DNA of 9,571 nt from Deltaproteobacteria bacterium (GTDB lineage Bacteria > JAUYMQ01), in assembly GCA_030698575.1 (NCBI GenBank), contig JAUYMQ010000620.1:1-9571 (forward strand), written 5' to 3'. The notes under the pieces were generated by a model, which had not been told where the DNA came from, ran no database searches, and was given only the letters and a program-made list of their open reading frames with translations. The position numbers and the translations under genes are program-made. Of the stretch, positions 2,445 to 9,571 are shown in pieces. The first letter of the stretch is position 1, and every line of letters begins with the position of its first letter.

Positions 2445-3212
2445 TTAGAGCCGTATCGGCACATCGCGGGCGGCCAGGTAGGCCTTGGCCTCGCGGATCG
2501 TGTGCTGGCCGAAGTGGAAGATGCTCGCCGCCAGCGCCGCTGTGGCGCCGCCCGCCGTGAGCCCCTCGTAGAGGTGCTCGAGGGTGCCGACGCCGCCGGA
2601 GGCAATGACGGGGATACCGACCGCGTCGCTCACCCGCCGGGTGAGGTCGATGTCGTAGCCCTTCAGCGTGCCGTCGGCATCCATGCTCGTGAGAAGGATC
2701 TACCCGGCGGACGCCATTTCCATCCGCCGCGCCCTGGCAAGCACTTCGCTCCCGGTGGGACTGCGCCCGCCGTGCGTGAAGACCTCCCAGCGCAATTCAC
2801 CCCCGTCAGGTGCGCGCTTGGCGTCAATGGCCACCACGATGCACTGGCTTCCGAAGCGGCCCGCGGCGCGCCCGACGAAGTCGGGATCCTCGACGGCGCT
2901 GGTATTGATAGAAACCTTGTCGGCCCCCGCGCGCAGCAGCGCGCGAATGTCCTCCAGTTCGCGGATTCCGCCGCCGACCGTGACGGGCATGAAGACCCCC
3001 TCGGCCGTGCGCGCGACCACGTCAATCATGGTGCCGCGAGTCTCGTGGGAAGCCGTGATGTCGAGGAAGGTCAGTTCGTCGGCGCCCGCCGCGTCATAAG
3101 CCAGCGCGGCGGCGACCGGATCGCCGGCGTCGCGAAGATTCACGAAGTTGACCCCCTTCACGACACGGCCATCCTTCACGTCGAGGCAGGGGATGATTCT
3201 TCGAGCCAGCAC
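2445..3212 (-). pseudogene. hisF: hisF, imidazole glycerol phosphate synthase cyclase subunit, interrupted by in-frame TAG
   Basis: HisF is the (beta/alpha)8-barrel subunit that uses ammonia from HisH to turn PRFAR into imidazole glycerol phosphate and AICAR. Full alignment length is 255 codons, normal for the family. The GTG start at 3212 gives [16 protein letters not shown] and has AAGGAG 8 bases upstream. D11 and the second catalytic D130 (VVAIDAKR) are present, as are [30 protein letters not shown] and LAASIFHFG. Codon 171 is TAG where the family has Glu (motif GAGEILLTS). A single change from GAG explains it, and the frame continues undisturbed for 84 more codons to TAA at the normal C-terminus. 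The N-terminal product would be 170 residues, losing strands beta6-8 and the second phosphate site. Re-initiation at ATG 2684 would omit strand beta6 and has no good ribosome site. This could be a real nonsense mutation, a suppressed stop, or a sequence error; identity itself is certain. Confidence 0.93.
2700..2702 (-). other. In-frame amber codon within hisF (codon 171)
   Basis: The minus-strand reading is GCC-GGG-TAG-ATC-CTT-CTC, that is A-G-stop-I-L-L. The family consensus here is A-G-E-I-L-L, so plus-strand base 2702 (a) would be c in an intact gene. By position this is the counterpart of Glu167 of Thermotoga maritima HisF. Confidence 0.95.
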
Positions 3213-3250: not shown

Positions 3251-3349
3251 CGCATGTCATTGCGAGGAGCGAAGCGACGAAGCAATCCCCCGGCAGCTGC
3301 GAGGGGGATTGCTTCGTCGGGCCTGCGGCCATCCTCGCAATGACATGCG
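3251..3349. repeat. 99-base imperfect palindromic intergenic repeat between hisA and hisF
   Basis: The outer arms 3251-3268 and 3332-3349 are an 18-base perfect inverted repeat (core TGTCATTGCGAGGA). The inner arms 3275-3291 and 3303-3319 are a 17-base perfect inverted repeat (core CGACGAAGCAATCCCCC). The loop is 11 bases; between the two stems is an asymmetric bulge of 6 versus 12 bases, the longer side containing GGCC-TGC-GGCC. The sequence has the character of the dispersed ATTGCGAGGAGC...GAAGCAATC palindromes known from the intergenic regions of many bacterial genomes. It fills most of the 147-base gap between hisA and hisF. There is no T tract, no coding content and no clear target-site duplication. 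As RNA it would be a long stable hairpin within the his transcript. Confidence 0.9.
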
Positions 3350-3359
3350 CAGCGGGACG

Positions 3360-4088
3360 CTAGCCGCCGCCGAGGAGCGTGAGCGCGTCGGCCATCACGA
3401 CGTCGCCGGTGTAGAGCGCGCGTCCGACGATCACCCCCGCGACGCCCGCCGCCTCTATTTCGAGAAGGCGGCGCAGATCCTCGAGCTTCCCCACGCCGCC
3501 CGAGGCAATCACCGGGGTTACCAGCGCGCGCGCGAGCGTCTCCGTCGCCTTCAGGCTGGGGCCGCGCAGCGTGCCGTCCACCTCTATGTCGGTGTAGATG
3601 ATCGCCGCTAGCCCGAGCCCGTCGAAACGCCCGGCGATCTCCGCGGCGCTATCCTCCGTCGTCTCTTTCCAGCCGCGGATCGCAACGCGGCCGCCGCGCG
3701 CATCGAGGCCGAGAGCCACGCGCCCCGGATGCTTCGCCGCCGCGCGCTCGAGCAGCTCCGGATCGGAAAGCGCTGCGGTGCCGATGACGACCCGCGAAGC
3801 CCCGAGATCAATGAGGCGCGAAGCGGCGTCGAGCGTGCGCACCCCGCCGCCGATCTGAACGGGGATCCGCACGGCTTTCAGTATCTTCTCGATGGCAGGC
3901 AGGTTGCGCGGTTCGCCGGCCACGGCGGCGTCCAGATCGACCACGTGGAGCCACCGGGCCCCCTCGCTTTCCCACCGCTTCGCCGCGTTCTCGGGATGGT
4001 CGTCGTAGCGCGTCTCGCGGGCCATGTCGCCCTGCGTGAGGCGCACCGCGGCGCCCTCCTTGATGTCCACCGCGGGATAAAGGATCAC
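3360..4088 (-). CDS. hisA: ProFAR isomerase HisA
   Basis: HisA is the (beta/alpha)8-barrel Amadori isomerase that converts ProFAR to PRFAR, the substrate of HisF-HisH. The 242 residues fit the family. Catalytic D8 (LYPAVDIKEG) and D129 (ALGLDARGG) are both present, with phosphate-binding loops QIGGGVR (78-84) and PVIASGGVG plus GVIVGRALYTG in the C-terminal half. TDIEVDGT at 166-173 is the usual strand-6 motif. The start is GTG at 4088, overlapping the TGA of the lipoprotein gene by 4 bases, with GAGGAGG 7 bases upstream, so translation is probably coupled to that gene. It ends in TAG at the normal family C-terminus, which matters for judging the TAG in hisF. Confidence 0.97.
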   Translation of the reverse strand: MILYPAVDIKEGAAVRLTQGDMARETRYDDHPENAAKRWESEGARWLHVVDLDAAVAGEPRNLPAIEKILKAVRIPVQIGGGVRTLDAASRLIDLGASRVVIGTAALSDPELLERAAAKHPGRVALGLDARGGRVAIRGWKETTEDSAAEIAGRFDGLGLAAIIYTDIEVDGTLRGPSLKATETLARALVTPVIASGGVGKLEDLRRLLEIEAAGVAGVIVGRALYTGDVVMADALTLLGGG

Positions 4089-4849
4089 GGCGCGGCCTCC
4101 TCGGGGGCATTCTTTCCGGTCTCCCCGGGCCGGGGAAACTCCTCCAGGATCTGCTCGACGGCCCAGGTGGCGAGCTGGCTGGCCGTCAGGAACTTCGCGC
4201 CACGCTGCACGAGCGTGCCGAAGCTCGCCACGTTCTCACTCAGTGTCGCCTGCGCTTCCTGGTAGCTGCCCTCCCACAGCAGCGCGCCCGTCCGCGCGTC
4301 CATGAGATGCGTGTCGATCGCGACCGAGGCCGACCGCTCGGCGCCGTAGGCCGATCCCCTGAGCTCGTCGAAGCGAAGGACGTTTCCCGCGACAACCGCG
4401 TCGACCTTGAGCCCCTGGCCGATCGCCATGAAGAAGGTCGCCGGATCGAGTGTCGCTGCATCGAGACCCTGCCGGTCGACGAACGCCTGTGTCTCGCCCG
4501 GCAGAACCAGCTCGTAGCCGCCGCCCCGCAAGGTGAGTTGCTGCACGAAGGCCGCGGTCACCTCGTCGGGCGCGGTCTTGGGAATCAGCCCGCCCGCATA
4601 GCGCCTCCCCTCGATAAGACAGGTGACAACCGGTTCGAAGGTCCCCTTCGTCCGCTCGACGTAGAGATCGGTCGCAAAGGGCAGGACGGCTATTCGCCGC
4701 ACCGGCCGCTCCTTCAGAAGATCGCTCCGGTGCACCTCGACGAACCGCGCGCAGGCGGCAAGCATGGGAAGAAGCGCCATTGCGGCGCAGGCAAGCCGGA
4801 AAGGTCCGGCCCGGCGCCGTCCGCGCGTGCTGGAGGTTCGTGGCTTCAT
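4085..4849 (-). CDS. Predicted lipoprotein of unknown function within the his operon
   Basis: This 254-residue protein begins with an Arg-rich n-region, a hydrophobic stretch (about 17-32) and a lipobox L30-A31-A32-C33, so it should be lipidated and anchored on the periplasmic side of a membrane. The mature part has RRIAVLPFA (51-59), DAVVAGNVLRF (150-160) and IDTHLMDARTGALLWEGSY (178-196). This pattern is typical of the CsgG/LpoB/GNA1162-like periplasmic lipoprotein fold; the match is by motif style only and the specific function is not recognised. The C-terminus is Glu/Pro-rich. The gene starts 21 bases after hisH and its stop overlaps the hisA start, so it is embedded in the his operon, though no histidine-related role is evident. 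A GGAG 12 bases before the ATG lies in a small GGAG-ATTT-CTCC hairpin, so the ribosome site is weak or partly masked. Confidence 0.8.
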   Translation of the reverse strand: MKPRTSSTRGRRRAGPFRLACAAMALLPMLAACARFVEVHRSDLLKERPVRRIAVLPFATDLYVERTKGTFEPVVTCLIEGRRYAGGLIPKTAPDEVTAAFVQQLTLRGGGYELVLPGETQAFVDRQGLDAATLDPATFFMAIGQGLKVDAVVAGNVLRFDELRGSAYGAERSASVAIDTHLMDARTGALLWEGSYQEAQATLSENVASFGTLVQRGAKFLTASQLATWAVEQILEEFPRPGETGKNAPEEAAP

Positions 4850-4870: not shown

Positions 4871-5497
4871 TCAGCCCTGGCAGAGATTGCCGAAACGCGC
4901 GAGCACCTCGAGACCGAGCTGCTGGCTCTTCTCGGGATGGAACTGGACTCCCCAGATGTTGTCGCGCGCGATGGCCGCGGTGAAGGGGGAGCCGTATTCA
5001 GCCGTGCCGGCCAACCAGTCAGGATCGTCCGGGGCCACGTAGTAGGAGTGGACGAAGTAGAGATAGCTTGGATCGGGCAGGTCCTCGAAGATGCGCGCCC
5101 GCTTTCGCCACCGGACCTCGTTCCAGCCGATGTGTGGCACCTTGAGTGAGCCGCCGTCCGGATCGGTGGACGGGAAGCGGAGCACGCGCCCCGGAACCAG
5201 GCCGAGACCCTCCTGCCGTCCGAACTCCTCGCTTTCGGTGAACAGCAGCTGAAGCCCGAGGCAGATCCCGAGAAACGGCTTCCCGCTCCTGACAACCTCC
5301 ACGACTGCCTCGCGCAGGCCCCCGCGCTCGAGATTCGCCATGCAGTCGCCGAAGGCGCCAACCCCCGGCAGAACGACGCCCGCGGCGCCGCGCAGCCGGT
5401 CGGGATCGGGCGTGACTTCCGCCGCGTGACCCAGGTTCTCAAAAGCCTTCTGCACGCTTCGGACGTTTCCCATCCCGTAGTCGACGATGGCGATCAT
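4871..5497 (-). CDS. hisH: Imidazole glycerol phosphate synthase glutaminase subunit HisH
   Basis: HisH is the class I glutamine amidotransferase that hydrolyses glutamine and channels ammonia through the HisF barrel. Length (208) fits. The catalytic triad is complete: nucleophile C79 in FLGICLGLQLL, and H187 and E189 in WGVQFHPEKS. The N-terminal IVDYGMGNVRS, the oxyanion-strand LPGVGAFG (43-50) and PHIGWNEV (121-128) are also typical, as is HSYYV. The gene starts with ATG 2 bases after the hisB stop and an AAAGGG-like ribosome site lies somewhat far upstream. HisH is intact while its obligate partner HisF carries an amber codon, so glutaminase activity would lack its normal partner if hisF is truly broken. 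Confidence 0.97.
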   Translation of the reverse strand: MIAIVDYGMGNVRSVQKAFENLGHAAEVTPDPDRLRGAAGVVLPGVGAFGDCMANLERGGLREAVVEVVRSGKPFLGICLGLQLLFTESEEFGRQEGLGLVPGRVLRFPSTDPDGGSLKVPHIGWNEVRWRKRARIFEDLPDPSYLYFVHSYYVAPDDPDWLAGTAEYGSPFTAAIARDNIWGVQFHPEKSQQLGLEVLARFGNLCQG

Positions 5498-5499
5498 TG

Positions 5500-6120
5500 C
5501 TAGAGAACACCCTTTGTCGAGAGCGCGCCGCTCACGCGCGGCTCGGCGCTGCTCGCCTGATCGAGGGCCCGGCCAAGCGCCTTGAATATGCTCTCGACCA
5601 GGTGGTGCGAGTTTTTTCCGTACCGCACGTTCACGTGCAGATCGATCTGCGCATTCGAACCGAAGGCGCGGAGAAACTCCTCCACCAGCTCCAGATCGAA
5701 GCCGCCGATCTTGTTCACCGGCAGTACGGCATTGAAGACGAAGTGCGGCCGGTTCGAGAGATCAACCGTCACCTCCGTCAGCGTTTCCGTCATGGGGACC
5801 ACGCCGTGGCCGTAGCGCCGTACGCCCTTGTAGCCGTCGAGCGCCTTCCGGAAGGCCTGTCCGAGCACGATGCCCACGTCTTCGACCGTGTGGTGGAGAT
5901 CCACCTCGAGATCGCCGCGAGCCTTGAGCTGCACGTCGAAGAAACCGTGCTTGAACGCGGCGCCGAGCAAGTGGTCGAAGAAGGGGATCCCGGTGTCGAC
6001 GTGGTAGTCGCCCGTCCCGTCCACAACGAGTTTCATCGAGATGTCGGTCTCGCGCGTTTTACGACTGAGCTGGGCGCTGCGCGCCCCCTCGCCGCGTTTT
6101 CTGGGCGTCGTCTTCTTCAT
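5500..6120 (-). CDS. hisB: Imidazoleglycerol-phosphate dehydratase HisB (monofunctional)
   Basis: This Mn-dependent enzyme dehydrates imidazole glycerol phosphate to imidazole acetol phosphate, the step after HisF-HisH. It has 206 residues and no fused histidinol phosphatase domain. Duplicate metal-binding motifs are present: FFDHLL (47-52), DLHHTVED (74-81) and NSHHLVES (170-177). RRYG and VDLSNRP are also typical. The usual PMDE reads PMTE (109-112), a substitution outside the metal-binding histidines. The N-terminus is about a dozen Lys/Arg-rich residues longer than many homologues before SRKTRETDI. ATG at 6120 overlaps the hisD TGA (ATGA), with GGAGGGG just upstream. The gene ends with TAG directly after the canonical STKGVL C-terminus. 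Confidence 0.96.
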   Translation of the reverse strand: MKKTTPRKRGEGARSAQLSRKTRETDISMKLVVDGTGDYHVDTGIPFFDHLLGAAFKHGFFDVQLKARGDLEVDLHHTVEDVGIVLGQAFRKALDGYKGVRRYGHGVVPMTETLTEVTVDLSNRPHFVFNAVLPVNKIGGFDLELVEEFLRAFGSNAQIDLHVNVRYGKNSHHLVESIFKALGRALDQASSAEPRVSGALSTKGVL

Positions 6121-7483
6121 CGTCCCCTCCGCTCCTTCCGTCGCGATCCGTCTGCCCGGCGGCTCCGGCCCCCCCGGTCCGCCTCCATCCTCACCCGCAC
6201 CGCCTCAGCGTGCCCCGCCAACCCCTCCAGCCCGGCAAGCGTTCGCGCGTGCGGGCCCAGCCGCTGGATGCCGGCGCGGCTCACCTCGATCACGCTGGAG
6301 CGCTTCACAAAGTCCTGCGCGCCCAGCGGGGAGAAGAAACGCGCCGTGCCCGCCGTGGGAAGCACGTGATTGGGTCCCGCCACGAAGTCCCCCAGCACCA
6401 CGGTTGAATTGTGCCCGAGAAAGATAGCGCCGGCGTGGCGAATCTGCCGGAGCCAGAGCGACGGCCGGGCAACGGCAAGCTCCAGGTGCTCCGGCGCATA
6501 CCGGTTGGCAAGACCGACCGCCTCCGCGGCGCTCCTCGCCCGGATGAGCGCGCCTCCGCGCGCGAGCGCCTTTTCGATGATGCGCCGGCGGGGCGCCCGC
6601 GCCATCTGCCTGGCAAGCGCCGCGCGGGTCTTCTCCAAAATTGCCCGCGAGGTCGAAATGAGAATCGCTCGCGCATCCTCGTCGTGCTCGGCCTGCGAGA
6701 GAAGATCCGCCGCAAGCCACTCGGGGTTGGCGGTCTGATCCGCCAGGATCAGGATCTCCGTCGGCCCCGCGATGGCGTCAATCCCGACCTCGCCGAAAGC
6801 CAGCCGTTTGGCCGTGGCGACGTAGATGTTGCCGGGCCCGACGATTTTGTCGACCCGTGGCACCGTGCGCGTGCCGTAGGCGAGCGCGGCGATCGCCTGG
6901 GCTCCGCCGATGCGGAACACGCGATCCACGCCGGCGATTTCCGCCGCCGCGAGCACCGCGGGGCTCAGCTTCCCCCCGGATGCCGGCGTGGCCAGCACGA
7001 TCTCGCCAACACCCGCCGCCCTGGCCGGAACGGCGGCCATCAGAACCGATGAGGGGTAGGTAGCCTTGCCGCCCGGCGCGTAGACACCCACGCGATCGAG
7101 CGGCGTCACCTGCTCGCCCAGCTTCACCCCGGGGCCGCCGTCCATGCGCCAGGAGCGCGGGCGCGCCTTCGCGTGAAAGCGCGCGATGCGGGCCGCAGCC
7201 ACTTCGAGCGTGCGAAGCGCGGCGGCAGGCAGCCCGCGGCCCGCGGCCCGGATGGTGCGCCGATCCACCTCGAGGGTGGCCGGCGTCAGGCGAAGGCCGT
7301 CGAACTTCCGCGTGAGCTGGATGAGCGCGCGATCGCCCTTGCGCCGCACCGCCTCCATGATCGCGCGGACCTCGGTCTCGACCTGCCGCCCGTCCACGAG
7401 GCCACGCTCGCAGATGCGGTCGAAAGTCCGGCCGAAATCTTTCGAGGTGGTCGAGAGCAGTGGCATCGAGGGTGCGGCGGCTT

Positions 7484-7487
<4 letters not shown>
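6117..7487 (-). CDS. hisD: Histidinol dehydrogenase HisD
   Basis: HisD carries out the last two steps of histidine synthesis, a four-electron NAD-dependent oxidation of histidinol to histidine with a Zn ion. It has 456 residues. The signature runs through [15 protein letters not shown] (192-206), [17 protein letters not shown] (212-228) and [10 protein letters not shown] (241-250). Zn and catalytic residues are all present: Q265 and H268 (SQAEHDED), E333 and H334 (APEHLE), D367 (VLGDF) and H426 (GLAGHAEAV). After about residue 433 comes a roughly 20-residue Arg-rich tail beyond the usual end. The start is GTG at 7487, overlapping the murA TGA by 4 bases; the ribosome site is poor, and ATG at codon 8 (MPLLSTTSK) is an alternative. 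In many relatives hisG precedes hisD here, but it is absent. Confidence 0.96.
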
Positions 7488-8776: not shown

Positions 8777-9571
8777 TTACCGTCGCCTTGCCGAGACCAC
8801 TCTTGGAATTCCAGCCAGATCCGCGATCACCCGGATCCCCTCGAAATCGCCGCCGGCCTCGTAGAGCGCCGACACGGCCGCCGCCTGCCCGACGCCCACC
8901 TCGACGGCGATCGAGCCGCCGGGAAGAAGGTGCGCGGGGGCGTCTGCCCGAAGCCGCCGGTGGACCGCAAGGCCGTCGGGTCCGCCACGCAACGCACCCG
9001 CGGGCTCCCAGTCACGAATGTCCGGCGGCAGCTTTTCCCAGTCGCCGTCTTCGACGTAGGGCGGGTTCGAGAGAATGAGATGAGCCGGCGCCGCTCGCCC
9101 GCTCTTCCCGGCCCCTCTGGCTCCGTCCCGCTCGCCGAGGAGATCGCCCCGGCAGAGCGTCACCCGCCCCACAAGGTCTAGCCGTTCCACGTTGCGGGCC
9201 GCCACACGCAGCGCTCGCGCGCTGCGATCGATGGCGAGGACCTGCGCGCGCCGGTTCGCGTGAGCCAGCGCCACAGCCACGCAGCCTGATCCCGTTCCGA
9301 CGTCGATGACGCGCGCCCCTTGATCCGTACCGCCGCGCGGCGCCCGGTCATGGAACCCCGCTTTCTCAAGAAGTTCAAGCCCTTCCTGCACCAGCGTCTC
9401 GGTATCCGGGCGCGGTATCAGGACCGATCGGGTCACTCGAAAGGGCAGGGACCAGAATTCCCGCTCCCCGGTGATGTAGGCCACCGGCTCCCGCCGCCCC
9501 CGGCGCGCGATGCGCCGCCGGTAGGCCTCCGCATCGCGCTTCCCGAGCGGCAGGCGGCGGTCGAGGATCAT
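8777..9571 (-). CDS. prmC: Peptide chain release factor N5-glutamine methyltransferase PrmC, 5' end outside window
   Basis: PrmC methylates the GGQ glutamine of release factors RF1 and RF2 with S-adenosylmethionine. The visible 264 residues hold the end of the N-terminal recognition domain (RREPVAYITGEREFW, then LIPRPDTETLV) and the whole class I methyltransferase domain: motif I DVGTGSG (90-96) and the catalytic NPPY (169-172), then GGPDGL. The C-terminus DLAGIPRVVSARRR is typical. The ATG at the very edge of the window is almost certainly an internal Met, because the first 25-30 percent of the N-terminal helical domain is missing; the true start lies upstream, where prfA is often found. Short Gly/Arg-rich insertions (about 75-85 and 146-162) are lineage-specific loops. 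It ends in TAA, 39 bases before murA. Confidence 0.95.
   Translation of the reverse strand: MILDRRLPLGKRDAEAYRRRIARRGRREPVAYITGEREFWSLPFRVTRSVLIPRPDTETLVQEGLELLEKAGFHDRAPRGGTDQGARVIDVGTGSGCVAVALAHANRRAQVLAIDRSARALRVAARNVERLDLVGRVTLCRGDLLGERDGARGAGKSGRAAPAHLILSNPPYVEDGDWEKLPPDIRDWEPAGALRGGPDGLAVHRRLRADAPAHLLPGGSIAVEVGVGQAAAVSALYEAGGDFEGIRVIADLAGIPRVVSARRR

Follow-up and report, generated by a model that had tools for sequence, protein, structure and literature searches.

The window analyzed here, a stretch of 9,571 nucleotides that makes up one whole contig (C490) of a 4.13-Mb genome bin (653 contigs, 91.6% complete, 4.6% contaminated), carries a hisF gene with an in-frame TAG, and we judge it probable, at roughly 60%, that sequencing or assembly introduced this stop locally into the stored sequence. 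Because the TAG lies within a short abnormal stretch while the rest of the gene and operon is intact, it most likely reflects either a defect in the sequence or an ordinary, recent gene disruption; our best reading ranks the defect first and a recent nonsense allele next, while recoding of UAG at hisF is very unlikely. A stretch of about 60 bases (approximately 2700 to 2762) would hold several wrong bases, one of which would create the TAG, and the living cell would carry an ordinary, working hisF. The cause would probably lie in sequencing or assembly; a join with thin read coverage in a metagenome bin would be one example.

Genes on the minus strand of the window occur in the order prmC, murA, hisD, hisB, hisH, a lipoprotein gene, hisA, hisF, and a methylpurine-DNA glycosylase gene. 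Features of the window, together with genes elsewhere in the genome that contain a single in-frame TAG, are reported in Table 1.

Table 1. Features of the window and other TAG-interrupted genes of the genome
Feature	Position	Strand	Description
hisF	2445..3212	-	GTG to TAA, 255 codons, 1 internal stop; the translated frame matches PF00977 across the TAG
In-frame TAG	2700..2702	-	Codon 171, at an invariant Glu (Glu167 of T. maritima)
Abnormal stretch	2700..2762	-	Codons 151-171; several conserved positions broken, flanks normal
hisA	3360..4088	-	Intact; ends in TAG, normal length
hisH	4871..5497	-	Intact partner of HisF; no deviation at conserved columns
hisB	5500..6120	-	Intact; TAG end two bases before hisH ATG
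hisD	6117..7487	-	Intact
prmC	8777..9571	-	Runs off the end of the 9,571-base contig; prfA expected just beyond
FabH-type synthase	L246:4811-5893 (C154)		In-frame TAG; Glu there in the three solved homologues shown
Molybdopterin oxidoreductase	L171:9326-11494 (C381)		TAG at residue 592, between two domains
PEP-CTERM protein	L165:12695-13447 (C335)		Single in-frame TAG
Phage-like protein	L177:3-644 (C1)		Single in-frame TAG; weak matches only

An earlier note on this DNA had described the hisF frame, its length, and its sole internal stop, and all three hold in the stored sequence. In a profile search, hisF matches PF00977 with 281.8 bits over model positions 1 to 227 of 228, the TAG falling inside the match, and with 283.8 bits when the stop is read as Glu. 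Both catalytic aspartates (Asp11 and Asp130) are present, and three gate residues (Arg5, Glu46, and Lys99) stand at the numbers that the note had given. The fourth gate residue is replaced by the stop: codon 171 aligns with Glu167 of Thermotoga maritima HisF, as the note had proposed, and all 107 aligned homologues have Glu there. In T. maritima, HisF carrying E167A binds HisH with a ten-fold higher dissociation constant (PMC9032424); our literature search on the four gate residues gave no match. The gene thus resembles the HisF family in its full-length profile match, its catalytic aspartates, its three retained gate residues, and its place in the operon after hisA, and differs from it by the TAG at the invariant Glu and by the broken codons 151 to 171. 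A second hisF, which the note had suggested looking for, was not found in a profile search of the assembly.

The description of this gene as otherwise perfect did not survive comparison with its relatives, since three further strongly conserved positions are broken within the 21 codons up to the stop. Ser155 stands where 100 of 107 homologues have Ile or Leu, Arg160 where all 107 have Trp, Phe, or Tyr, and Ser168 where all 107 have Gly; Ser151 and Met166 are also unusual. Relatives read like RPTGLDAVSWAARMEEYGAGE over codons 151 to 171, from which the 20 residues and stop of the window differ. Identity to the 15 closest relatives is 72 to 79% over codons 1 to 150, falls to 30 to 50% over codons 151 to 171, and is 63 to 73% over codons 172 to 255; among themselves, these relatives share 62% identity over codons 151 to 171. 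The deviations are significantly clustered (permutation P = 0.001 for the worst 18-residue stretch, with the stop not counted), and their excess is limited to approximately codons 151 to 195, codons 1 to 150 and 196 to 255 being at or near expectation. The note's statement that the downstream codons show no decay was correct. Ranked among 108 sequences, this hisF is fifth for its worst stretch but only 29th in total divergence; of the four sequences with a worse single stretch, at least three are far more divergent overall. Codons 151 to 171 contain no indels, and their G+C and third-position G+C contents look normal.

The other histidine genes of the contig, hisA, hisH, hisB, and hisD, match their respective families without interruption, and hisG and hisI lie side by side on another contig, free of stops. 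At columns conserved in at least 95% of relatives, hisA and hisH show no deviations and hisB and hisD two each, in a comparison that leaves out murA (too few relatives).

Several simple mechanisms for the abnormal stretch were considered and rejected. By eye, neither the other reading frames of codons 151 to 171 nor their reverse complement encodes a HisF-like peptide, as compensating frameshifts or a short inversion would predict. A G-to-T damage signature explains the TAG only and was not adopted because Ser155, Arg160, and Ser168 require other changes.

Several side observations concern the surroundings of hisF. The lipoprotein gene between hisH and hisA (4088 to 4849) is weakly GNA1162-like, and three Nitrospirae-labelled loci (L065, L068, and L070) carry, in the same place, genes 29 to 32% identical to it. 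Between hisA and hisF lies a dispersed palindromic repeat some 99 bases long (3251 to 3349), in which perfect inverted repeats of 18 and 17 nucleotides are nested; a DNA search found 94 further matches in the same genome, a count that includes both strands and partial copies. An Rfam search of the window gave no match. hisA and hisF share one reading frame (3360 to 2445), which is open past the hisA TAG through the repeat, so that TAG codons alone separate the two genes.

To see how UAG is used in this genome, we turned to a six-frame hexamer scan of approximately 1.01 Mb, sampled by contig, which replaced a codon-usage scan without frame comparison whose signals were mostly antisense shadows. 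The scan recovered 877 stops ending coding frames (574 TGA, 212 TAG, and 91 TAA). Coding continues in frame after 43 TGA (7.5%), 21 TAG (9.9%), and 6 TAA (6.6%) codons, and many of these continuations are the next genes of operons. UAG is therefore an ordinary stop here; recoding would require it to be rare or absent in that role. Known recoding systems, such as pyrrolysine systems and phages that read UAG as Gln, share with this case an in-frame UAG within a conserved gene; here, in contrast, UAG ends about one quarter of genes, and neither a pyrrolysyl-tRNA synthetase (PylRS) nor a tRNA with a CUA anticodon was found.

The search for an amber suppressor tRNA, which the earlier note had proposed, found none among 42 tRNA matches in this incomplete assembly, and a pattern search for CUA loops yielded nothing beyond arms of known tRNAs and unrelated matches. 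Several expected tRNAs, including those for Trp and Phe, were likewise not found, and the recovered tRNA set is therefore incomplete. The best PylRS match scored 25.5 bits against a cutoff of 178.15. Release factors RF1 and RF2 are both absent from the assembly. In L067, a groundwater bin with matching gene order, the end of prfA (RF1) lies directly before prmC, which is where the contig of the window breaks. Because RF2 is missing as well, which is impossible in a living bacterium, and because the break falls beside prmC, an assembly gap is the simplest account of the missing RF1. Stop usage, the tRNA and PylRS searches, and the place where the contig breaks together led us to reject recoding of UAG.

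The tRNA search also returned some irregular matches. Two Leu-like tRNA genes with a long variable arm (L144:132-219 on C376 and L150:117-204 on C176) are assigned Glu (CTC) and Val (CAC) anticodons by ARAGORN; one has C for U before the anticodon, and both end in ACCC rather than ACCA. A weak tRNA match (L151:102-157 on C479; 32 bits), in which ARAGORN calls no gene, resembles tRNA-Lys(TTT) in its 5' half and not in its 3' part.

At least four further genes in the approximately 1 Mb sampled contain a single in-frame TAG, as identified by eye and partly with Pfam (Table 1). The TAG of the oxidoreductase aligns with a variable Arg/Pro position, not with Glu. No clear case of an in-gene TAA was seen in this sample, and 0 of 42 ABC-ATPase matches contained a stop. 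Given the codon usage of the genome, 63% of one-step nonsense changes would yield TAG; five TAG codons among five interrupted genes are therefore not significant (chance, approximately 0.1).

The earlier note had named the right set of alternatives, a very recent lesion, suppression, or a sequence error, and its account of the geometry and of Glu167 stands; it overlooked the cluster of conserved-site substitutions beside the stop, which shifts weight toward a local sequence defect. We favor such a defect over neutral decay because the changes cluster at the stop, the flanks are normal, and the tested pathway is intact. The simultaneous breakage of columns 160, 168, and 171, each invariant either in residue or in residue type, the fragmentation of the bin, and the other TAG-interrupted genes also speak for it. 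Against it, the lack of indels and normal G+C content mean that every error would have to be a substitution, at a high local rate; among the interrupted genes, such a stretch is documented for hisF only; and worse stretches do occur in 4 of 108 sequences. A true recent nonsense allele is possible but clearly less probable: hisF would then be a young pseudogene whose protein ends after residue 170 of 255, HisH would be left without a partner, the strain would need external histidine, and the neighboring substitutions would stem from one local event or have followed soon after. A single substitution from a Glu codon would suffice, TAG is the commonest outcome of one-step nonsense changes at this codon usage, the frame is otherwise open, and the genome holds further single nonsense codons; yet all six other histidine genes tested (hisG, hisI, hisA, hisH, hisB, and hisD) are intact, and neutral decay should spread across the gene rather than stay within about 21 codons. 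Nonsense alleles and sequence errors in metagenome-assembled genes alike leave a single in-frame stop with an intact frame, intact flanks, and no downstream decay; this stop differs in lying inside a cluster of conserved-site substitutions. A literature search on nonsense errors in bins gave no match.

Read-through, in which a suppressor tRNA or partial reassignment would insert an amino acid at codon 171, is highly improbable. The five in-gene TAG codons without a clear TAA counterpart, the Glu aligned with the stop in both hisF and the FabH-type gene, the RF1 gap, and the incomplete tRNA set would fit it, but roughly 90% of the 212 TAG-terminated frames show no coding continuation, the hisB TAG falls immediately before hisH, the decoding components sought were not found, the RF1 gap extends to RF2 and coincides with a contig break, the oxidoreductase TAG sits at a variable position, and the run of TAG codons is not significant given codon usage alone. 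It is extremely improbable that a suppressor tRNA encoded in the missing part of the assembly lets UAG be tolerated or decoded in hisF and in the FabH-type, molybdopterin oxidoreductase, PEP-CTERM, and phage-like proteins while also serving as a stop. HisF half-barrels are able to associate, and an ATG at codon 177 could restart translation, so that the first 170 residues and a second fragment might assemble into a split HisF. We consider this hardly credible: no ribosome-binding site is evident before that ATG, the break lies away from the half-barrel boundary, and neither arrangement would restore the invariant Glu and Gly.

Our preferred reading is still that the stored sequence is locally defective, and it counsels caution: one stop codon in the gene for a key enzyme should not, in a metagenome bin, be taken as a sign of auxotrophy or recoding until the reads have been checked, and clustered conserved-site substitutions beside such a stop are a useful warning sign. 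If real, the hisF allele would represent an ordinary loss of histidine synthesis of a kind already known.

In-frame TGA codons were observed as well. An AhpC/TSA-type redoxin gene (L262:7616-8221 on C306) has a TGA at codon 124 that opens a CxxC-like motif (TGA-P-N-C), making the product a candidate selenoprotein; a SelB-like match on C389 scores 188.9 bits, below the cutoff of 242.25. The adjoining BNR/Sortilin-repeat gene (L262:6390-7772) contains a second in-frame TGA, at codon 370.
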